From positions 1 to 27,852 of the IMG/VR virus record IMGVR_UViG_3300043773_000259: DNA of 27,852 nucleotides; one strand, written 5' to 3'. A program made the position numbers and the translations under genes. Each line of letters begins with the position of its first letter. The first letter of the stretch is position 1. The notes beneath the pieces are model-generated. The model had not been told where the DNA came from. It ran no database searches and worked only from the letters and a program-made list of their open reading frames with translations. This document shows, piece after piece, positions 15,207-26,034 of this stretch. The DNA is from a virus.

Positions 15207-16382
15207 CTACATAATCACGTACCTACCCCCAGCGTTGGCGGATAGCTTGTTCAAGGCGACGTAACGCACCGCGTCAATGGCGTGGTTGTACCGGTCAATC
15301 GGCACTCCCAACGACGCGCCCGTGCGATCGGTGTCCCAAGTGTAGTTGCGTAGTTCCTTGATCAGGTTCGTCGATTCACGCGTCACGAGCATCGGCTGCC
15401 GCTTTAGGATGTCGATGCTGTTCCTGATGCTGTCTGCGCCCTTCGTCGCCGGGTGTATGTTGAAGCCAAGGCGATGCACCTCCTCAATGCTCTTGGGTTC
15501 AGCACTGTCAGCGATGATCGGCCACGACCTGCCGATGCCTAGCTTGCGTAGGTGTTCAGCAATGTCTTGATTGGTGAGGCCGTTTTGGTAGATCAATTCA
15601 TGCAGGAGAATAGCACTGCCACGCTTGTAAACGGCCACCACCGCCGTAGGGTCATTCGTGTATCCCCAGTCCAAGCCGATGGCGACCAGCTTGTCACCAG
15701 CGAAGTCGATGCCGTCGACCTGCTGCCAGTCGTCAAAGACCACGCCCTGCAATGATCCGACCTCACCCAAGCCGTAGACCTTCCACCAGTTCGCCCAGTA
15801 CGTCGATGTCGCCGCCTTGACCTGCGCCGCTTCGATGTCGTCGCGGATCGTCGCCGGCAGTGCCTCGTTGTCGCGGTATGTCAGCACCAGCAACTCACTG
15901 TCTTGCTCGGCTAAGACCTCCGTGTGCGCCCAGAACTCCGACACCGGGTTGAAGTCGATGTAGATGGCTTCGCTTGTTCTGATAGCCAGCTGATGGTACG
16001 CCTCAAACTCGATGTTGTTGGCTTCGTTTATGTATAGCACCTGTCGCCGTGCGCCGCGTAGCTTAGCCTCCTGATCAGCACTGAAAAACTCAATCGTGCT
16101 GCCATTCGCAAACGTGTAGGTCAGCAGCGTCTTGTTCCAGCCTTCGTCGCGCCAGCGGTTCGTCCACTGCATGACCTTGCCGAAGTCCTTCATAGCACCA
16201 CGTCGCAGGTGCGGGATTGATTCAGATACGACGCTGATCTCGGTCTTGGCCTTGGCTGCAATGTGGATCAACACTGCGAGGATCGCGTAGGTCTTGCCCG
16301 CGCTCGTTCCGCCTTGGATGACTTTCTTGCGAGCCGTCATCCGCCTGATGCGCTTTATCGCGGTGGTGTGATGAAATGCCAT
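15207..16382 (-). CDS. terL: Terminase large subunit (ATPase-nuclease)
   Basis: The product has 391 residues. The ATPase half has Walker A GGTSAGKT at 24-31, Walker B-like VLYINEAN at 115-122 and IYIDFNPVSEFWAH following. The nuclease half has GLDWGYTNDPTAVV with D238, IIADSAEPKSI with D292, and YNHAIDAVRY with D370, the three acidic positions expected of the RNase H-like nuclease in the Terminase_3/PBSX family. It pumps DNA into the prohead at the portal and cuts concatemers. The ATG lies immediately after the last of three tRNA-like genes (three bases beyond its discriminator), with no ribosome-binding site. The small subunit is separated from it by a methyltransferase, a MazG-like gene and the tRNA-like genes, rather than being adjacent. 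Confidence 0.93.
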   Translation of the reverse strand: MAFHHTTAIKRIRRMTARKKVIQGGTSAGKTYAILAVLIHIAAKAKTEISVVSESIPHLRRGAMKDFGKVMQWTNRWRDEGWNKTLLTYTFANGSTIEFFSADQEAKLRGARRQVLYINEANNIEFEAYHQLAIRTSEAIYIDFNPVSEFWAHTEVLAEQDSELLVLTYRDNEALPATIRDDIEAAQVKAATSTYWANWWKVYGLGEVGSLQGVVFDDWQQVDGIDFAGDKLVAIGLDWGYTNDPTAVVAVYKRGSAILLHELIYQNGLTNQDIAEHLRKLGIGRSWPIIADSAEPKSIEEVHRLGFNIHPATKGADSIRNSIDILKRQPMLVTRESTNLIKELRNYTWDTDRTGASLGVPIDRYNHAIDAVRYVALNKLSANAGGRYVIM

Positions 16383-16385
16383 TTG

Positions 16386-16482
16386 TAACCGAGGTGGGGT
16401 TCGAACCCACGTTTACAACTTCTGTTTACGGTCGGGGTGCGCACTCCCTAATTGTCGTTTTACCACTTAAACTACTTCGGTT
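16386..16482 (-). tRNA. tRNA-like gene with expanded anticodon region (third of three)
   Basis: The 97-base minus-strand element has an acceptor pairing AACCGAA with CTCGGTT (one mismatch at position 7). The D-arm is GTTT / AAAC with a GG-containing loop, and the T-arm is a perfect GTGGG TTCGAAC CCCAC. The middle cannot form a normal anticodon arm. A 5-bp stem ACAAT / GTTGT encloses a 31-base loop, inside which GGG(A)GT and ACCCC form a small hairpin. Normal loops have 7 bases. The variable region is 4 bases (AAAC). The 3' side reads A-CAA with no encoded CCA. The ATG of the large terminase follows at once. It may be an insertion-bearing tRNA, a decoy, or a degenerate gene. No anticodon can be assigned. 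Confidence 0.6.
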
Positions 16483-16499
16483 TTTTCTAATATCATTTT

Positions 16500-16511
16500 G
16501 TTGACGTCAAC
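16500..16511. repeat. Perfect 12-bp palindrome between tRNA-like genes
   Basis: GTTGACGTCAAC is its own reverse complement and lies in the 41-base spacer between the second and third tRNA-like genes. It could fold as a short stem to guide processing or be a protein site. A perfect 12-mer palindrome is expected by chance a few times in a window this size, so this is a weak note. Confidence 0.35.
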
Positions 16512-16523
16512 GAAATGGTTTTG

Positions 16524-16594
16524 TGGCCATGGCAGGATTTGAACCTGCAATAAACCCCGCCATTGGGGTGTGTGTGCCTTTCCACCACATAGCC
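16524..16594 (-). tRNA. tRNA-like gene with a 6-base anticodon loop (second of three)
   Basis: The 71-base minus-strand element has acceptor GGCTATG / CATGGCC (seven pairs, one G-U) and a perfect T-arm GCAGG TTCAAAT CCTGC. A short D-arm GTG / CAC has a GG-containing loop. The anticodon stem ACCCC / GGGGT is five perfect pairs but closes a loop of only six bases, AATGGC. Forcing a seven-base loop breaks the stem, so the anticodon cannot be assigned (GGC after T, or TGG, are the readings on view). The variable loop is TTATT. The 3' flank is A-CAA, as in the other two, with no encoded CCA. Only three bases separate it from the first tRNA-like gene. Confidence 0.68.
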
Positions 16595-16597
16595 TTG

Positions 16598-16669
16598 TAG
16601 TCAGGACAGGACTCGAACCTGTATTTGCAGGCCCTTTCGAGCCCGTGGTTACCATTACGCCACCTGACT
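16598..16669 (-). tRNA. tRNA-like gene with an 8-base anticodon loop (first of three)
   Basis: The 72-base minus-strand element has a perfect 7-bp acceptor AGTCAGG / CCTGACT and a perfect T-arm ACAGG TTCGAGT CCTGT. The D-arm GTGG / CCAC has a GG-containing loop, but its stem starts almost without the usual two-base linker after the acceptor. The best anticodon stem CGGGC / GCCTG leaves an eight-base loop TCGAAAGG. That is one base more than normal and lacks a clear U33, although GAA (Phe) is in the expected region. The variable loop is CAAAT. It ends A-CAA without encoded CCA. The 5' end lies eight bases after a TATATTTG -7 element. The identity cannot be stated with confidence. Confidence 0.7.
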
Positions 16670-16671
16670 TT

Positions 16672-16878: not shown

Positions 16879-17992
16879 TGGTGACGTGGTTGATGCGTGC
16901 CTGTGCTATTGCGACGTACTCGGCCTCGCGTTCAATGCCGATGAAGCTAAAGCCTTCGAGTGCCGCCGCTTTGCCTGTTGATCCTGACCCCATAAACGGG
17001 TCAAGCACCGTTCCATCGGGTGGCGTTACAAGCCTGCACAGGTAACGCATCAGGTCGGTAGGCTTGACCGTTGGATGGTTGTTGCCCTCATCCCTGTCGC
17101 GTTTGCTTGCCTTGGCGCAGTAGAAGAACCGCGCGGCTGAGCCTGAATCGCCGTAAGTATCTGCGTTTGATTGACCGCCTCCAAACATACCCAATCCTTT
17201 GCTCGCCTTCTCACCGCCGCGCATAAACCCACTCTTTGTGTCAGGAAACAACCCCACCACCTCCTCGCTTCCATCGTGGATGAAGTTGGCAGGCCAGCGG
17301 CCTTGACTATGTTGTTCATAAGGATTTCTATTTACATCTTTCCATCCTGATGCTGTTATGCTATTTTCCTTTCTCTTAAAATCAATTATTTCCTCCGTCC
17401 CCACCCTACACCCATCCACGTTAATCGCACCCGTGCCGTGTTGCAGGACGTTCTCGGCTACCGTGCCAATCAAGGGCTTGCGTGCTACGGTGATGGGTTC
17501 AAGCGCAGGCTTGAGTGCAGTCCCCCAACCTTGCCATTGCTTTGCTTCGGGGGTGGCGGGTAAGGTTGGTGTAATGCCATCACCCCAAGCACCATATCGC
17601 CCTGTTGATTCTGATTGCGCACCCTTTCGTGTTTCGCCCACCACCTCCCTCTCCGCACCCGCCGCCTTATCAATCGCCTTGCTCACATCCAACGACTTCG
17701 GAAACCCCGACCCGTACACCCAAGCAATCATATCGCGTATCTCAAACCCCGCATCCTCAATCCGCACCGCCATTCTATGCTGCGTCCTCGTCCCCGCAAA
17801 GGCCAGCAAGTGACCACCGGGCTTCAACACCCGAAGGCACTCCGCCCACACCTCGACACCCGGCACATCGTAGTCCCACTTCTTACCCATGAACGACAGG
17901 CCATACGGCGGATCAGTAACAACAGCGTCAACGCTGCAATCAGGCATAGCACGCAAGACCTCGATGCAGTCGCCGTGTATTAGTTCAGTCAT
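16871..17992 (-). CDS. DNA N4-cytosine/N6-adenine methyltransferase, beta class
   Basis: The 373-residue protein has the catalytic motif IV TDPPY with DPPY at 27-30 near the N-terminus. The AdoMet-binding part lies near the C-terminus: NNHPTVKPTDLMRYLCRLV and LDPFMGSGSTG (FxGxG motif I, from about 330). This IV-before-I order defines the beta class of amino-methyltransferases (N6_N4_Mtase). The middle (VGETRKGAQSESTGRYGAW ... GGGQSNADTYGDSGSAARFFYCAKASKRDRDEGNNHP) is likely the target-recognition part. It methylates phage DNA, probably to avoid host restriction, or possibly to mark DNA for packaging. No restriction enzyme is adjacent, so it is an orphan enzyme. It overlaps the small terminase upstream and the MazG-like gene downstream by eight bases each, inside the packaging cluster. 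Confidence 0.92.
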   Translation of the reverse strand: MTELIHGDCIEVLRAMPDCSVDAVVTDPPYGLSFMGKKWDYDVPGVEVWAECLRVLKPGGHLLAFAGTRTQHRMAVRIEDAGFEIRDMIAWVYGSGFPKSLDVSKAIDKAAGAEREVVGETRKGAQSESTGRYGAWGDGITPTLPATPEAKQWQGWGTALKPALEPITVARKPLIGTVAENVLQHGTGAINVDGCRVGTEEIIDFKRKENSITASGWKDVNRNPYEQHSQGRWPANFIHDGSEEVVGLFPDTKSGFMRGGEKASKGLGMFGGGQSNADTYGDSGSAARFFYCAKASKRDRDEGNNHPTVKPTDLMRYLCRLVTPPDGTVLDPFMGSGSTGKAAALEGFSFIGIEREAEYVAIAQARINHVTND

Positions 17993-18398
17993 TGAATAGC
18001 GGCTGTTCGATTTTGACTTCAGCTTGTGTCTTATCAGCCAAGCCGTTGAGGCGCTGCGTGATGCTCGTATTGTAGATGCCAGTCATGCCGCCCCTGATTT
18101 GGTCAGCGCGGATCGTGGTCTTGATGCGCGTACAGATTTCCACAAATTTGTCGTATCTCCCATCCGGATTGGTGAAGTATTGGTCGATGCTCTTGCCGAT
18201 TCCCTGCTCATAGCAATAGACTTGAAAGCCCTCAAACGTCAGTGGGTTCTCACGCTCACGATGCACTTTATCGGCCTTGACGCCAACATAGTCTTCGACC
18301 AGTACAGGTGTTGCCTTCGCTTTCTTGCAATATTCGGCAAACGCCTCCCACATTTCGTCAGGCGTTTCAAAACTCGGTGGTCTGCCTGCTTTATTCAT
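17985..18398 (-). CDS. terS: Terminase small subunit (DNA-packaging protein, gp3-like)
   Basis: The 137-residue protein opens MNKAGRPPSFETPDEMWEAFAEYCKKAKATPVLVEDYVGVKADKVHRERENPLTFEGFQVYCYEQGIGKSIDQY. This is the DNA-packaging gp3-like / Terminase small subunit pattern: a GRPxxF start and 'ltleGf..y......s..qy', followed by a helical DNA-binding half. The C-terminal part KTTIRADQIRGGMTGIYNTSITQRLNGLADKTQ has the helical 'iyn..i..r..gl.dk' core typical of this family. It recognises the packaging start site and recruits the large subunit. It starts inside the stop of the upstream small gene (ATGA). The methyltransferase follows by an eight-base overlap. The large subunit lies about 1.6 kb further on. 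Confidence 0.85.
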   Translation of the reverse strand: MNKAGRPPSFETPDEMWEAFAEYCKKAKATPVLVEDYVGVKADKVHRERENPLTFEGFQVYCYEQGIGKSIDQYFTNPDGRYDKFVEICTRIKTTIRADQIRGGMTGIYNTSITQRLNGLADKTQAEVKIEQPLFND

Positions 18399-19079: not shown

Positions 19080-19581
19080 GTTTTAGTCGTTGTTTGCAGT
19101 TGTTGATTGTGTACGAAATTGATCGCCAAGGTATCTTGGTGAGTCGCTCGATGAGTTTCTTGTTACCCAAATCGAGCCAAAGGAGGAATAGCTGCTTGTC
19201 GTACGGGTAAGCGCCGGCTTTTGCCCAGCCATCCATGACTTCGAGCGCCCGGTTAAATATTGCATCAGGCCTTGCATCATACGGCTCATCAGCTGCCTCC
19301 AGCTGCTGATCGGCGATTTCCTCGCGCAGTTCATTGTGTCGGAAGTCGCGTTGAAATTTAGAGTTTCGACTTCGGTAAAGGTTGATAGCCATTCGCACGA
19401 TGTAGAATTTGAGGTAGCCTCCGGCGTGCATGGCTTCGATCTTTTCGGCTGGCTTTTCATAGAGTCTGATGACGAGTTCATGTTCAAGGTCTGGCGCAAG
19501 GTCAGGCGTAGCCAGCTGGCGTGCTATCTGCCGCAGCTTGCCGCTCGTGTAAAGCGTTAGTATGATTGTGCGTGCCTCCAC
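19012..19581 (-). CDS. Sigma-70-like transcription factor (phage-type)
   Basis: The 189-residue protein has a segment like sigma region 2, DLAPDLEHELVIRLYEKPAEKIEAMHAGGYLKFYIVRMAINLYRSRNSKFQRDFRHNELREE (about 28-90). A second, region-4-like segment, LFLLWLDLGNKKLIERLTKIPWRSISYTINNCKQRLKHEL, includes a 'gn...lie...kip..sI..ti...k..lk' helix-turn-helix pattern (about 127-170). This two-part arrangement is seen in many phage 'sigma factor' proteins of Bacteroidota. It would redirect host RNA polymerase to phage genes, so it is a likely regulator of late transcription. The start at 19581 is GTG and is uncertain; the gene overlaps the DnaA-like gene by 80 bases and the next gene by 68. Confidence 0.58.
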   Translation of the reverse strand: MEARTIILTLYTSGKLRQIARQLATPDLAPDLEHELVIRLYEKPAEKIEAMHAGGYLKFYIVRMAINLYRSRNSKFQRDFRHNELREEIADQQLEAADEPYDARPDAIFNRALEVMDGWAKAGAYPYDKQLFLLWLDLGNKKLIERLTKIPWRSISYTINNCKQRLKHELGSDYYIAFGHYDFLGDEPL

Positions 19582-19912
19582 ATTGGTCGCAAATATACAT
19601 AGTATCTTTTGGTCTAATATTGTGCGGCTCGTAGCGCTTAATTTCTTTGAGCCACGTGTACTTGTTCATCGTAACTTGCAAGACGTAGATGACCTCCAAG
19701 CCGTGGTGTACTGTCGAGTAGTGGCGGCGCATCAGCTTGGCTATCTCCATCAGCGTCATTTTCATTTTATGGCGCATGAGGTAAATCAGGCAGTAGCGTG
19801 CCTCCGCGACTTCGCGGTGGCGGTCTTGGCTCTGCATCTGGCGCAGGCCAACGCCTGTGCGCTTGGTCACCTGCTCGGCGTAGTAGTAGAATTCACGTTG
19901 TTGCTTAGTCAT
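19502..19912 (-). CDS. DnaA domain IV-like DNA-binding protein with zinc-ribbon tail
   Basis: The 136-residue protein carries QDRHREVAEARYCLIYLMRHKMKMTLMEIAKLMRRHYSTVHHGLEVI at about 29-75. This matches the C-terminal (domain IV) helix-turn-helix of DnaA, including the RxHSTVxHx signature as RHYSTVHH at 63-70. It lacks the AAA+ ATPase domain. The C-terminal part has MYICDQCGGTHNHTN, a possible C-x2-C-x3-H-x-H zinc-binding site at 108-117. Such short DnaA-like proteins occur near phage replication genes and could bind DnaA boxes or phage origins, or act as regulators. It starts with the CCAA leader (AAACAAACCAACCAATG), and its end overlaps the sigma-like gene by 80 bases, a strange but plausible overlap. 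Confidence 0.75.
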   Translation of the reverse strand: MTKQQREFYYYAEQVTKRTGVGLRQMQSQDRHREVAEARYCLIYLMRHKMKMTLMEIAKLMRRHYSTVHHGLEVIYVLQVTMNKYTWLKEIKRYEPHNIRPKDTMYICDQCGGTHNHTNALHERQAAADSTPAGYA

Positions 19913-20261
19913 TGGTTGGTTTGTTTATAGCTTTAAGAAATTCGTTGAGTGATCGAACTATGTAGTACTTGTATCCTGCAGCTTCGATTGTCTCCTGCCA
20001 TTGCTTTTGTTTGGGCTGCTGCCTCCCGATGACCGTCTTAAACTCAATAGCGATCAAGCCATTGTCGCTCAGATACATCATATCTGCAACGCCGGCCACA
20101 ACGCCCATTGACTGATTCATAACGGCTCTGACCTTGTTGTCGCTGTTGTTGTTTACTGCAAATAACCGGCCCCGCTCTTCGGGGTAGTTATTCCAGTGGT
20201 AAAGGAAGCACTGTGATTGAAGTCTGAATTCTGACAGTTCTTGCATCGGTTTTGAAAACAT
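19905..20261 (-). CDS. VRR-NUC domain nuclease
   Basis: The 118-residue protein contains the VRR-NUC pattern. QSQCFLYHWNNYPEERGRLFAVNNNSD opens the fold, then GVVAGVADMMYLSDNGLIAIEFKTVIGRQQPKQKQWQETIEAAGYKYYIVRSLNEFLKAI follows. The metal-binding D of GVADM, the E and K of IEFKT and the Q of PKQKQW are conserved nuclease positions. Stand-alone VRR-NUC proteins act on branched DNA, possibly as Holliday-junction resolvases, and often sit beside phage helicases and primases. It starts 109 bases inside the helicase frame. It ends KPTND with a stop that overlaps the CCAA-led DnaA-like gene by eight bases. A shorter start at 20246 is possible. Confidence 0.82.
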   Translation of the reverse strand: MFSKPMQELSEFRLQSQCFLYHWNNYPEERGRLFAVNNNSDNKVRAVMNQSMGVVAGVADMMYLSDNGLIAIEFKTVIGRQQPKQKQWQETIEAAGYKYYIVRSLNEFLKAINKPTND

Positions 20262-21709
20262 TTATAGTATGGTTCTCCAGTCTCTGGGTGTTTTAATTGC
20301 GCCTTCATTCTTGCTTCCCACTTCCACTTTCCAGTCTTGCTGATAAGGCGCAGCCATTTCTCGCCCTCGCAATAGCATTCGCAAACGCTGTGCAAAACAA
20401 ATCCCTTCTTCATTCCCTCTGGGTTCTGCTTGTGCATCCTGGCTAAATCTTCCAATGGAACATCCTTCTTTTTGTTCAAAATATCTGTACGCACTTGTTT
20501 TAATATAACATCCGGCATTATCTCTTGCGCTGGACCTTGGAACTTGAATCCACAACTTGGGCATTCTTTGAAGCTGTTATGGCAAAGATACTCGCAATTC
20601 GGGCATTTTTTATGAGGAGCAACACCTCCCTTTGCTGGCCGTTTCTCTAAGCTCCACAATCGATCTTCATGCCAGGGACCATGCGTTTCCATGTTGTTAC
20701 CGAAGTCAAGGATCGTGAAATTCTTCTTAGTTCCAGTCACCCGGCTACCACGACCAACCATCTGCAAATACAGAGCCAAACTTGTGGTCGCTCGATAAAG
20801 GATCACGACCTCCGTATCCGGATCATCAAATCCTGTCGTAAGAATGCCTACGTTACACAAAATTGCATCGGGTGTGTTCTTATACCAGCTAAGTATCAAT
20901 CGTCGCTCCTCGTTGCGCATTTCGCTATCTACGTGCATTACTGGCAGTCCTACTTCCTTCATCTTGCTGCATAGCTCAATCGAGCTTTCAATATTGCTAC
21001 TGAAGACCAGGGCCTTCTTCCCAGGGCAAACCTTCAGATAATTGCTGATGACTCCGCCGTACACTTTACGGTCGCTGTATGCCTTCCCCATTTGCGCAGC
21101 ATCGTACTCCCCTTTATACATACTGACGCCAGACAGGTCGACAGGAACGGTGTAGTAATTTGGCTCCGCCAGGTAGCCATCGTCTATCAGCTTCTGGATG
21201 CTGACCGATTCAACAATCTGCGTGTAGTACTTGGATAGGGATGTCTGCTTACCGACACGTATAGGGGTGGCGGTAGCTCCGATGACATACTGTTCTTTGT
21301 GCAAGTGCGGTAAAATCTTATCGAATGCTGTTTTGTGCGCCTCGTCAAATATTACGAGCTTCATCTGTTTCAGCAGATCACTCCACAACGGCGTGTAAAT
21401 TCTATTCTTCATCGTTTCGATCATGGCCACGTAGCAGTTCGCATCCTGGTACTTCTTATCTCCAGCCGTAATCTTGACCGGGTTCAGTTCAAACTGCTGC
21501 AGAGCGTAGTGCGTTTGGTTCATCAGCTCTTGACGATCCGTCAGGATCATGACCTTGTTGCCCTTGTCTATTGACTGCCGAGCCATATGGCTAAACATAA
21601 CGGTCTTCCCGCTGCCAGTAGGGCTGCACAGTATCAGCCGCTTGTGCTTTTCATTCCAATGCATCTTTATAGCCTTAACCGCTATGTTTTGGTATGGTCG
21701 TAGTTTCAT
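20153..21709 (-). CDS. SF2 DEAH-box helicase with zinc-ribbon C-terminus
   Basis: The product has 518 residues. The helicase core has Walker A PTGSGKT at 30-36, DEAH at 122-125, TATP at 146-149 (motif III), LTTGFDDPDTEVVILYRAT and motif VI QMVGRGSR at 316-323. It belongs to the SF2 ResIII/UvrB-like group. The C-terminal part has four cysteines, CPNCEYLC ... CPSCGF (C369, C372, C383, C386), that form a zinc ribbon. A further Cys-rich section (CECYCEGE, NRCKNCQNSD) lies near residues 420-500. It would unwind DNA for phage replication or recombination. Its start is directly beside the GTGGTAA cluster, and a VRR-NUC nuclease follows. The last 36 codons overlap that nuclease out of frame. Confidence 0.9.
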   Translation of the reverse strand: MKLRPYQNIAVKAIKMHWNEKHKRLILCSPTGSGKTVMFSHMARQSIDKGNKVMILTDRQELMNQTHYALQQFELNPVKITAGDKKYQDANCYVAMIETMKNRIYTPLWSDLLKQMKLVIFDEAHKTAFDKILPHLHKEQYVIGATATPIRVGKQTSLSKYYTQIVESVSIQKLIDDGYLAEPNYYTVPVDLSGVSMYKGEYDAAQMGKAYSDRKVYGGVISNYLKVCPGKKALVFSSNIESSIELCSKMKEVGLPVMHVDSEMRNEERRLILSWYKNTPDAILCNVGILTTGFDDPDTEVVILYRATTSLALYLQMVGRGSRVTGTKKNFTILDFGNNMETHGPWHEDRLWSLEKRPAKGGVAPHKKCPNCEYLCHNSFKECPSCGFKFQGPAQEIMPDVILKQVRTDILNKKKDVPLEDLARMHKQNPEGMKKGFVLHSVCECYCEGEKWLRLISKTGKWKWEARMKAQLKHPETGEPYYKCFQNRCKNCQNSDFNHSASFTTGITTPKSGAGYLQ

Positions 21710-21722
21710 AGGTTAATGTCCG

Positions 21723-21945
21723 GTGGTAAGAGTGGTAAGAGAGTGGTAAGAGTTTTAATCCAACTGTTACCACCAAAATATTGAGTTTGCAGTTTGCATA
21801 CGCTGTTTTTTGGCTCGGTGGTAAGAGTGGTAACTACTTTTAGTAAATAAACTATATTTATTATTATACACACATGACGCATGTATGTACGCATCATATA
21901 GGTTAACTTGCTAAAAACCGTTTCCACTCTTACCACTGTTACCAC
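21723..21945. repeat. Candidate replication origin: eight GTGGTAA repeats and AT-rich core
   Basis: Between the primase stop (21956) and the helicase start (21709) lie 246 bases without a credible gene. They hold eight copies of GTGGTAA. Five are direct: 21723-21729, 21732-21738, 21743-21749, 21818-21824 and 21827-21833. Three are inverted: 21767-21773, 21930-21936 and 21939-21945. Spacing in pairs is 9 bases, once 11. Longer matches such as GGTGGTAAGAGTGGTAA recur. A very AT-rich run (about 21840-21870, TTATTATTATAC) lies between the repeat groups. Iterons next to a primase and an AT-rich unwinding stretch are the classic make-up of a replication origin. A regulator's operator array is the alternative. 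Confidence 0.6.
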
Positions 21946-21955
21946 TTTTGTGTTT

Positions 21956-24157
21956 TTAGAAATTGGGTTCAGTCATGTTGACTTCTGCAAAAGTTCGCTT
22001 GGAGAGCAGGTAACAGCGTTTTGTGATGTTGCTGCCACGTTGCTTAATACTCTTCCGCTCAAACTTCATTTTCTTAAGGTATTGACCAACCTTGTAGATC
22101 GTTATGTTCGATGATCTCAATCCACTGGTGATTAGTATGTACTGGTAAACATCGGATGTCGTGAGCCATTCGGCTCCAGCGACAGTGCCGGGTGGCTCGT
22201 AGTACTTTTCAATCAACTCACCTTCCAGGCTGACTTGTAGATTCTGCTCTGTCTTTTCCTTTAGGTATTCGCAGTCCGTGCCTGTGAGCATCCAATCCGT
22301 AGGGTTGTCGTGATAATAGTGGTACAGCTCAATAAACAGGGCGGCTTTGTCTATGGCTTCATAGGCATCCCAATTTATATTGGTGATGTTGATAGGTATT
22401 ATTCGCCTGTTGCCGGTTGGATCGTTAATAACCTCCTCTTCATTTGACGTGCCGCACAGAACCGCATACCTAATTAGATCTTCGTGCGTTTTGCCGTAAG
22501 GCTTACGAACACTAAAAGTCTGTCGGCTGGATATCTCCTTGAGTTTCTTAGCCTCCATCTTGCTCTTTCCACCAAATTCGTCATCGCAGAGGATGATCTT
22601 CTTACACATCAAGATTTCATCATCCTTGCCTCCATCCAGCTTAGATTCTCCATAATATCCGCGTAGTTCTTCGGGTAACAGGTTACGGAAGAAATTGGTC
22701 TTACCGATGCCTTGTGGACCTGTTAGCACTAAGCAGATAATCGAGTACTGACCATGCATAGATGCGACGATGGATGTAAGCCATTTCGGTAGGAATCGCC
22801 TGATGTATGTGGAATCATGGACATCACTGCTAATGGTATCGCACATCCTTTCGATGTTGCCGGTAGGTCTTGATCGTTTCTGCTTATTAAACCACTCCTT
22901 AAACGGATCGTATTGGGGTGTCCATTCTGAATCGATAATGTCAAAGACCAGCTGCTTCTTAACCTTGCTCCCCTGTTGATCTATGGCTTCCAGGTAAATC
23001 GTGTTTAGAACCCGATCGTCGACAGGCTTGCCATCAAACTCGTACTGCCTAGTGACTTTGTTCATGCGAATGTTGTACGTGCTGATCTGCGCCTTAAGAG
23101 CGTCCAGCATCTCATCAGCTGAAGGCTTATCTATCTCTTTAGCCGGCATCAAGAACGTCTCGTTTACGCGCTCCCTTGCATCATTTATGCCCTCCTGTTC
23201 GAGCTGCTTCAAGGTCGCGCTCTTAGCTTTGTCCTCATCTGCCCATCCTCCCTGCTTACCGACTTTCAACCGGTTTGTTTGTGCGACCATCTGCACCCTA
23301 ACAGTCTCAGCTGTTTGTATATCGATGTTGGCGTTTTTGCATAGGTACATAAATGTCGCAAAGGTGACCTTGCCTCTGGTGCCTTTCAGTAAAACCGTGT
23401 ACTTTGAATCGCATGTCCTGAAGTCATATTTTAGCGACTGGCTGCTAACCAGGTGAAATAGATCTCGGCCTTCCTGGCTGTCTCCGTACTTAGTAACGAT
23501 GGCCATGCCGATCTTAACCCAGTCCTCATATGATTCGCACATATTGACACGCTTCTGCTGAATCTGGTCAGTGATGTACTTGATGTCTTTGTCGCTATGT
23601 ACGTATATAGTTTTAGGCAAAAACTTAGGTTTCTGTAAATACAGTTTAAATAATGGCGGCATTTTGTCTGCCTTGTATAAATCCGGATCATAGCTGACGT
23701 AACGCAGCCGTGTCACGTCCTTGCATGAAGCGTCAATAATTAAGTGGTAGTTGTCGGCTATGTACTTACTCAATCCAAGGAACGCATCCAGGTGTCGCTC
23801 CGGATCAATGCGAAACAGCAACGCCAATCCATATCCGCCGGTAGACGTGAAAACGCTATAGCTATACTTATCGTCGATCAGTGCCTGGCGTTTGGTTTGC
23901 AGGTCCGGGTTATCCTGCAGGTCAATGTCGATGCAGATGAATCCGCTGTGTTTGGTTAGGTTGTCGACATTCCGTTTGCTAAACTCCCCACTAAGGGTTA
24001 TGCATTCCAATGTCTCTTTTTTTACCTTGCCAATCCGGACGTTTGTGACCTGGTCCTCATAGGTGCCATTGCGGATGTTCTCCAGGAAGTTATCCAGCTG
24101 GACCAAAGACTTTGGCACAGTATCATGATGTGTTTTGAAAAAACTGCAGTTAATCAT
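21956..24157 (-). CDS. VirE/BT4734-like primase-helicase
   Basis: I choose ATG 24157 (MINCSFFKTHHDTVP), which fits the family's 'FFk...t.p..l..l...ir.G.yk..v..iR' beginning; the product is 733 residues. Residues 1 to about 190 form a BT4734-like domain related to archaeo-eukaryotic-type primases: FICIDIDLQ with D77 and D79, and STGGYGLALLFRID at about 105-119. A PriCT-like helical part follows at about 193-275 (RVNMCESYEDWVKIGMAIVTKYGD). The C-terminal half is a VirE/SF3-like ATPase: GPQGIGKT at 480-487, LCDDEFG at about 523-529 (Walker B), and CGTSNEEEVINDPTGNRRIIPI near 568-589. It would synthesise primers and unwind DNA at phage forks. It follows a hairpin terminator and precedes the GTGGTAA repeat gap. 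Confidence 0.88.
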   Translation of the reverse strand: MINCSFFKTHHDTVPKSLVQLDNFLENIRNGTYEDQVTNVRIGKVKKETLECITLSGEFSKRNVDNLTKHSGFICIDIDLQDNPDLQTKRQALIDDKYSYSVFTSTGGYGLALLFRIDPERHLDAFLGLSKYIADNYHLIIDASCKDVTRLRYVSYDPDLYKADKMPPLFKLYLQKPKFLPKTIYVHSDKDIKYITDQIQQKRVNMCESYEDWVKIGMAIVTKYGDSQEGRDLFHLVSSQSLKYDFRTCDSKYTVLLKGTRGKVTFATFMYLCKNANIDIQTAETVRVQMVAQTNRLKVGKQGGWADEDKAKSATLKQLEQEGINDARERVNETFLMPAKEIDKPSADEMLDALKAQISTYNIRMNKVTRQYEFDGKPVDDRVLNTIYLEAIDQQGSKVKKQLVFDIIDSEWTPQYDPFKEWFNKQKRSRPTGNIERMCDTISSDVHDSTYIRRFLPKWLTSIVASMHGQYSIICLVLTGPQGIGKTNFFRNLLPEELRGYYGESKLDGGKDDEILMCKKIILCDDEFGGKSKMEAKKLKEISSRQTFSVRKPYGKTHEDLIRYAVLCGTSNEEEVINDPTGNRRIIPINITNINWDAYEAIDKAALFIELYHYYHDNPTDWMLTGTDCEYLKEKTEQNLQVSLEGELIEKYYEPPGTVAGAEWLTTSDVYQYILITSGLRSSNITIYKVGQYLKKMKFERKSIKQRGSNITKRCYLLSKRTFAEVNMTEPNF

Positions 24158-24177
24158 AAAGTTTAAGATGTAGGTAG

Positions 24178-24212
24178 AAAAAAATACCCCGACTGTTCGC
24201 AGGCAGTCGGGG
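24178..24212 (-). terminator. Rho-independent terminator in the primase leader
   Basis: On the minus strand a perfect 9-bp GC-rich stem, CCCCGACTG at 24204-24212 paired with CAGTCGGGG at 24187-24195, encloses an eight-base loop. It is followed by TATTTTTTTC. This is a textbook intrinsic terminator in the reading direction. It lies after the early 73-residue gene and only 20 bases before the primase ATG. It thus either ends the early operon or acts as an attenuator for the primase message. Confidence 0.88.
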
Positions 24213-24277
24213 CAGGCCAAGGTAGCGGCTTTGCTTACGTCAATGCTCACCTGCGAAAATGGGCATCAACTCTATTA

Positions 24278-25056: not shown

Positions 25057-25289
25057 AATTGGGTTGGTTTAAAGGTTATCGGTTTGTTTTTGTGTTCGCT
25101 ATTTGAATAGTAGCCAGTTGGGTTGTTGCAGTCCAAGATTTGAAACCAGTCAATGTTGTTATCATCGCACTCCACTAATTTATCACCCGCCTCAAATGCT
25201 TCGTCCAAAGTGTCGTAGGTTCCTGCATAATCTTCCAGTCCGTGGCAACTGTCGTAGTTGTTGCCTGCGATTAGTAAAAATTTATTCAT
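25053..25289 (-). CDS. Small phage protein of unknown function (KFLLIAGxxYD type)
   Basis: The 78-residue protein starts MNKFLLIAGNNYDSCHGLEDYAGTYDTLDEAFEAGDKLVECDDNNIDWFQILDCNNPTGYYSN. The 'fLLIaG..Y....g..D..G.ydtleEA' pattern is one I associate with small conserved phage and bacterial proteins of unknown function. The ATG follows a CCAA leader (CCCCAACCCAACT) and overlaps the stop of the alanine-repeat gene by ATGA. Its own C-terminus KPTQL is encoded by the next gene's leader. Confidence 0.62.
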   Translation of the reverse strand: MNKFLLIAGNNYDSCHGLEDYAGTYDTLDEAFEAGDKLVECDDNNIDWFQILDCNNPTGYYSNSEHKNKPITFKPTQL

Positions 25290-25783
25290 AGTTGGGTTGG
25301 GGTTAGAATTGAATTAACTTTTTGGATGATAAGGTCGCCAATGTACTTTCGGCAAATGTCAGCTGTTTGCAATCGATTTTCGATAGCGGCAGCGGCATAG
25401 GCAGCGGCATCGGCAGCGGCATAGGCAGCGGCAGCGGCATAGGCAGCGGCAGCGGCATAGGCAGCGGCATCGACAGCGGCATCGGCAGCGGCATAGGCAG
25501 CGTCTAACTCCTCACGTGTTGCCGTGCCTTCGCCAAAAGCAATCGCAGTGTCAACTGCTTTAAGGCTTCTATCGTCATTCATCAAGTGCCTAACGGTGTT
25601 GGCGCAGTGCCCTTTTGCAAGGGTTAATGGTTGCAGTCCAATATCGCATTTGGATGCGAGCCACAACAACCAATCGCCGCGGTGGCAGTCGGCTACGACC
25701 TGTTCAATTGTTTTATCGCCAGCCCAATCAATGGCGGTCTGGCAGGCTTCTAATGATTTAAGGTATTGATTAAAGGTTTTCAT
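25286..25783 (-). CDS. Imm-5-like (putative immunity) protein with alanine repeat
   Basis: I choose ATG 25783 (MKTFNQYLKSLEACQTAIDWAGDKT), which has the strongest CCAA leader (ACCAAACCAACC). The product is 165 residues. The opening (EACQTAIDWAG, then DCHRGDWLLWLASKCDI) fits the pattern of the Imm-5 family of putative immunity proteins, which are alpha-helical proteins with an 'AC..AidW' start that also occur in phages. Residues about 95-140 are Ala-rich with Tyr/Asp every three to five positions (AAYAAADAAVDAAAYAAAA...), encoded by tandem GCC/GCT-type repeats. The last part, ENRLQTADICRKYIGDLIIQKVN, is normal. Function is unknown. Copy-number changes in the repeat keep the frame. Confidence 0.68.
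   Translation of the reverse strand: MKTFNQYLKSLEACQTAIDWAGDKTIEQVVADCHRGDWLLWLASKCDIGLQPLTLAKGHCANTVRHLMNDDRSLKAVDTAIAFGEGTATREELDAAYAAADAAVDAAAYAAAAAYAAAAAYAAADAAAYAAAAIENRLQTADICRKYIGDLIIQKVNSILTPTQL
25386..25501. repeat. In-frame tandem repeat GGCAGCGGCATA/C within the Imm-5-like gene
   Basis: On the plus strand the 12-base unit GGCAGCGGCATA (or ATC) and 6-base halves GGCAGC recur about ten times with few changes (one GACAGC). Because all units are multiples of three, loss or gain changes the alanine helix by 2 or 4 residues without frameshift. It is coding, not a CRISPR. Confidence 0.85.
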
Positions 25784-26034
25784 TGGTTGGTTTGGTTTAG
25801 TTTGGACATCATTGCGACGCACTTGGTACGCTCTTCGGTCACGCCAAGGTTGTACGCGTTCTGCATGTCTTGCAGTGCGCTCCTGTACGCCTCCGCCCAG
25901 ACCGGGTAGAGGCGCGCCGAAACTTCAGGCGATACGTTTTGGAATAGCTGGCCAACGAGCGTCACGACCTTGCCAAGCTGCATGTTGTTGTGGGATAGCG
26001 ATACCATCGCTTCCACGCGTTCTTCAAGGCTCAT
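25780..26034 (-). CDS. Small helical protein of unknown function
   Basis: The 84-residue protein MSLEERVEAMVSLSHNNMQLGKVVTLVGQLFQNVSPEVSARLYPVWAEAYRSALQDMQNAYNLGVTEERTKCVAMMSKLNQTNQ is almost all helix. No family is recognised. It overlaps the upstream gene by ATGA. Its final residues N-Q-T-N-Q are exactly the reading of the next gene's AACCAAACCAACCAATG leader. It is an early gene. Confidence 0.62.
   Translation of the reverse strand: MSLEERVEAMVSLSHNNMQLGKVVTLVGQLFQNVSPEVSARLYPVWAEAYRSALQDMQNAYNLGVTEERTKCVAMMSKLNQTNQ
25784..25800 (-). promoter_or_regulatory. CCAA-type translation leader (best example)
   Basis: The bases ahead of ATG 25783 read CTAAACCAAACCAACCA. Similar A/C-only leaders lie before the starts at 26674 (ACCCAACCCAACCA), 25289 (CCCCAACCCAACT), 25056 (AACCAACCCAATT), 24770 (AACCAAACCAAACT), 19912 (AAACAAACCAACCA) and 27179 (CCAACTAAACCAACTAAAA). 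None has a GGAGG. It is likely an initiation enhancer for early genes, or the target of a phage or host factor. Confidence 0.55.

Follow-up and report, generated by a model that had tools for sequence, protein, structure and literature searches.

The 246-base non-coding gap between two replication genes of a viral genome record is very probably the replication origin of a tailed phage of Bacteroidetes-type bacteria. The record analyzed here (IMG/VR IMGVR_UViG_3300043773_000259, 27,852 nucleotides, hereafter the window) is covered in full and is classed as linear. Copies of the heptamer GTGGTAA surround AT-rich DNA directly behind the gene of a VapE-type primase-helicase (Table 1), and sequence comparison makes it highly likely that the gap is an iteron origin served by this adjacent initiator. 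The locus is a further case of an already known initiator-origin layout, and it supplies a concrete candidate origin in a phage group represented chiefly in metagenomes.

Iteron array and its conservation

The original prediction had described eight GTGGTAA copies, five direct and three inverted, flanking an AT-rich stretch in the only gene-free gap. These counts were borne out exactly, and one additional copy with a single mismatch was found. The spacing, predicted to be mostly 9 bases, is so for three of the four tandem steps, the fourth being 11 bp. The heptamer occurs 11 times in the window (2.2 expected, maximum 7 in 100 shuffles), and 8 of these 11 copies lie within the gap. When the gap alone was dinucleotide-shuffled 5000 times, the mean GTGGTAA count was 0.1 (maximum 3), and any 7-mer reached eight copies in only 0.02% of the shuffles. 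The AT-richest 37-bp segments of the whole record fall within 21830-21870, between the two iteron clusters (86-89% A+T vs 48% overall), and the spacer is probably the DNA-unwinding region. The iteron nearest the primase-helicase begins 10 bases past the stop codon of that gene. Only two gaps longer than 100 bp separate main genes of the window, and the other one (16383-16671) carries two tRNA-like genes, which leaves the iteron gap as the sole gene-free one. An Rfam search gave no match within 21400-22300.

Table 1. Features of the putative origin and its neighboring genes (positions in the window).
Feature	Position	Strand	Remarks
Putative replication origin (non-coding gap)	21710..21955	.	8 iterons around AT-richest stretch; kept by every near relative that spans the gap
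Iteron 1, GTGGTAA	21939..21945	-	Primase-helicase side; exact in all relatives covering iteron 1
Iteron 2, GTGGTAA	21930..21936	-	9-bp step
Degenerate iteron, GTGGAAA	21921..21927	-	1 mismatch; left cluster with three exact copies in clade 2
Spacer, 70% A+T, 96 bp	21834..21929	.	Between the two iteron clusters; conserved AATAAATATA(G/C)TTTATT
Iteron 3, GTGGTAA	21827..21833	+	
Iteron 4, GTGGTAA	21818..21824	+	9-bp step
Iteron 5, GTGGTAA	21767..21773	-	Inverted
Iteron 6, GTGGTAA	21743..21749	+	
Iteron 7, GTGGTAA	21732..21738	+	11-bp step (clade 2: 10)
Iteron 8, GTGGTAA	21723..21729	+	9-bp step (clade 2: 10)
VapE-type primase-helicase (BT4734_N + PriCT_2 + VapE)	21956..24250	-	Pfam; PDB 7pds; covariation in relatives
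SF2 (ResIII/DEAD) helicase	20153..21709	-	Next gene of the replication module
Small DnaA domain-IV-like protein	19502..19912	-	Bac_DnaA_C; considered as iteron binder, disfavored

Near relatives that keep both flanking genes form two clades. The repeat, whose absence from such relatives the original prediction had named as grounds for refuting it, was present wherever the whole gap was covered, with eight (window clade) or nine (second clade) exact GTGGTAA copies. Copy order and orientation are the same in both clades, the steps between iterons vary among 9, 10, and 11 bp, and the clades differ at ~40% of the remaining positions. Invariant columns comprised 52 of 56 motif positions vs 95 of 193 other positions, and the four motif exceptions belong to a single shifted copy. 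The gap combines features by which iteron origins are recognized: short direct and inverted repeats beyond chance in non-coding DNA, an AT-rich region beside them, and repeats kept where the flanking sequence diverges. A cumulative GC-skew analysis, proposed earlier as a check, did not mark the site and speaks neither for nor against an origin, since the coding strand is the same for nearly all genes.

A 79-aa open frame crosses the gap and was rejected as a coding gene. It is open in one clade only and broken in the second, and its codon differences (15-17 nonsynonymous vs 3-5 synonymous) lack a synonymous excess. Judged from these comparisons, the frame is not a gene and not under protein selection, in agreement with its earlier dismissal as a low-quality translation.

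Arrays behind VapE genes and known origins

With both flanking genes on the minus strand, the gap follows the primase-helicase gene and precedes the second helicase gene in the direction of transcription. The gap-adjacent primase-helicase is a helicase of the SaPI Rep/VapE kind: it carries a VapE-like domain (Pfam, E 2.8e-31), and the nearest solved relative of its helicase core is PDB 7pds ('Similar to D. nodosus vapE', E 4.7e-25); DUF3874 scored below its cut-off. The position of the putative origin directly downstream of the helicase gene is likewise that of the SaPI Rep/VapE kind. For the second helicase, no relatives were found in bacterial genomes.

Arrays of this kind are common behind VapE genes. 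VapE-type loci were recruited on protein similarity, with the repeat playing no part in the choice, from phage records, genomes, and viral contigs; after clustering at 70% identity and exclusion of loci found through the motif, 89 deduplicated loci remained. For each, copies of the commonest 7-mer within 450 bp behind the VapE gene were counted. A 7-mer repeated at least five times was found downstream in 46/89 loci, vs 4/81 upstream and 2/89 elsewhere; repeats at p ≤ 0.01 were found downstream in 54/89, vs 5/81 upstream and 5/89 elsewhere. As a search rule, inspection of these 450 bp recovered arrays at roughly half of the diverse VapE loci. The iteron word varies by VapE lineage, and relatives keep the array behind VapE irrespective of the following gene, be it VRR-NUC, small orphan genes, or satellite genes. 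Some VapE loci lack an array directly downstream, among them phi46:1, phi3ST:2, and, under the filter used, P12024S; in mumin6-3 the array is one gene further from VapE. In Clostridia MAGs (L528-L533), a 7-mer (e.g. GTGTACA, TAGTACA) is repeated 9-16 times directly behind the VapE gene.

Scans that started from the motif covered 120 stretches each and gave examples rather than rates. Among the matches listed, non-coding mixed-orientation GTGGTAA clusters adjoin VapE in L056, L107, L225, and L246 and other replication ATPases in L095 (4020-6122, DUF927 with Cch HTH), L173 (25-1442, AAA_25), and L088 (1715-3892, AAA_25). A GTGGTAA-type word may be common to these unrelated ATPase families by convergence or through a shared binding module; no homology was detected when the VapE C-terminal domain was compared by profile with the C-terminal domains of the DUF927 and AAA_25 proteins, the latter side represented by single sequences. 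Further non-coding GTGGTAA clusters occur without an identified initiator neighbor (L129 1686-1926, L183 2259-2503, L237 12439-12699, and also L186).

In the record of Streptococcus phage Sfi21 (NC_000872), the stretch 34487-34784 is labeled 'origin of replication, 302 bp non-coding region'; it follows a putative primase and has nine AGTAAC copies around an AT-rich core, and its function was shown experimentally (summarized in PMC6356513). Like the gap, it is of similar size, lies directly behind the putative primase gene, and has GTAAC-type repeats on both sides of the AT-rich core. It differs in its word, AGTAAC, in a primase that the VapE profile does not match, and in its experimental footing, the window gap being read from sequence. 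Together with the relatives and the VapE-array association, this annotated origin supports by inference the iteron-origin reading first proposed for the gap. SaPI Rep and SCCmec Cch2 recognize iterons directly downstream of their own genes through their C-terminal domain (PMC7581432). The SaPI ori and the putative SCCmec ori share with the window a helicase gene with iterons directly downstream; the helicase is reported there, and proposed here, to be an initiator that binds them. However, they belong to chromosomal islands or cassettes with separate primases, whereas the window represents a tailed phage with a fused primase and a ResIII helicase as the next gene. The Cch2 iteron is the 5-base AAGTG, and the Cch2 repeat TACCACTTAAT holds GTGGTA on its other strand. 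Phages and satellites CHPC1282, IPP31, Javan589, Javan373, and FPSV-S27 resemble the window in carrying 6-9 copies of a 7-8-mer around an AT-rich core directly behind vapE, with words that differ by lineage (CGGTAAC, ATCGGTAG, CGGTAACA, GGTAGGAA, and GGTTACAC). The records viewed label none of these five arrays an origin.

Covariation of iterons with the VapE wing

The likely reader of the iterons is the C-terminal winged domain of VapE, a fold that sequence profiles predict. Among pairs with 40-97% or 50-97% core identity, iteron similarity correlated with identity of the C-terminus once the helicase core was corrected for (partial r 0.25-0.30); with the core, corrected for the C-terminus, the value was 0.06-0.09. 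In a sliding-block scan, the streptococcal-type and Bacteroidetes-type groups both had their maximum in the C-terminal region (r about 0.32), and the Bacteroidetes-type peak falls on block IYKVGQYLKKMKFERKSIKQRGSN of the window protein. At a partial r of about 0.3, the signal of these larger groups is modest, and a small third group has its covariation peak outside the C-terminal region. By hhalign, the two larger groups have homologous C-terminal domains (95%, E 4e-8).

The clearest evidence on the presumed reader comes from natural switches. In the streptococcal proteins of L272 and L318, only 3 of the 429 residues before the wing differ, as against 12 of the final 24; the corresponding iterons are CGGTAAC in L272 and CGGTTGC in L318, with right-end copies at matching positions. 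Conversely, L277 and L307 have one iteron in common, and their proteins differ at 87 of the 429 residues preceding the wing but at only 4 of the last 24. Across 34 distinct streptococcal proteins, residue 434 is K/R where the iteron has A and S/G where it has G; at residue 435, Q accompanies base T, and T/V/P/A accompanies base A. At the aligned wing position, the window protein has S (GTGGTAA) and its syntenic relatives L462 and L494 have N (GTGGTTA and TGGTTAC). Counted by lineage, N/Q accompanied T in 5/5 cases and A in 0/11 (chance 2e-4 if lineages were independent, which they are only in part). The wing codons and the array are adjacent in DNA, so that one recombination event could carry both. 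Such linked recombination is a partial alternative that weakens the covariation argument but does not remove it.

The evidence leaves evenly balanced a broader reading, in which the VapE primase-helicases of tailed phages and satellites would form one large initiator-origin class. Their specificity would be set by a residue-base code of the wing, iteron and wing would switch together, and GTGGTAA-type words would even be shared with unrelated replication ATPases (DUF927/Cch, AAA_25). In the code proposed as part of this reading, an amide residue would specify T, and any other residue A, at one iteron base; at the next base, in streptococcal phages, K/R would specify A and G/S would specify G. 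Both the wide association of arrays with VapE genes and the residue-base code may be new; a limited literature search found no paper combining VapE with iterons. If the code is true, the origin specificity and incompatibility of many phages and satellites would be readable from sequence, and it would be predictable which phages an Sfi21-kind origin decoy blocks.

The explanation we favor as highly likely is that the gap serves as the theta-type replication origin of the phage. The VapE-type primase-helicase would bind the GTGGTAA iterons via its C-terminal winged domain, and its hexamers would assemble on the clusters flanking the AT-rich stretch. The enzyme would then open this stretch and load itself, and the fused primase domain would start new strands.

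Alternative readings and genomic surroundings

Dense repeats can also be operators, and the gap lies directly upstream of the second helicase gene and the genes after it. The repeats might accordingly bind a repressor or activator of helicase-operon transcription, with the AT-rich stretch as promoter. A scan found no sigma-70-type promoter in the gap, Bacteroidetes promoters being outside the coverage of that scan. Arrays that follow VapE regardless of the next gene, and an iteron word that changes together with the VapE wing, make an operator in place of an origin unlikely; the two functions are compatible, as the initiator could autoregulate at the gap. Another candidate binder is encoded in the same module. 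The Bac_DnaA_C domain of the small DnaA domain-IV-like protein could recognize the repeats as diverged DnaA boxes and initiate replication or recruit host DnaA. GTGGTAA resembles GTGGATAA minus one base, and one near DnaA box (TTATACACA, 21864) lies inside the gap. Yet near matches to the DnaA box (TTATCCACA) are no more frequent than chance predicts (4 in the window vs 4.35 expected), which is not the pattern of a DnaA-box origin. The DnaA-like protein is only 60% identical in L003/L004 and about 28% in clade 2, where the iteron is unchanged, and arrays widely follow VapE genes across phages. We therefore judge binding by this protein very unlikely.

Iterons are generally known to occur at partition sites too, and the gap might be a packaging, partition, or recombination site instead of an origin. 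No partition genes were noted, however, and the terminase-like genes (15207-16382 and 17985-18398) are kilobases away. The position directly behind an initiator helicase recurs in many lineages, and we regard this possibility as extremely improbable. The reading as an origin served by the adjacent VapE-type initiator remains preferred.

Some neighboring genes of the window and its relatives are unusual in their own right. In L004, the DnaA-like protein is 60% identical while the adjacent helicase and VapE are about 100% identical, as for a locally swapped or fast-changing gene. The two tRNA-like genes (16523-16669, minus strand), located beside a terminase-like gene, have odd anticodon loops (ARAGORN: 'tg' and 'gaaa'). 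An ORF at 25286-25822 (minus strand) encodes a long alanine-rich repeat of YAAADAAA type, built from tandem codon repeats.
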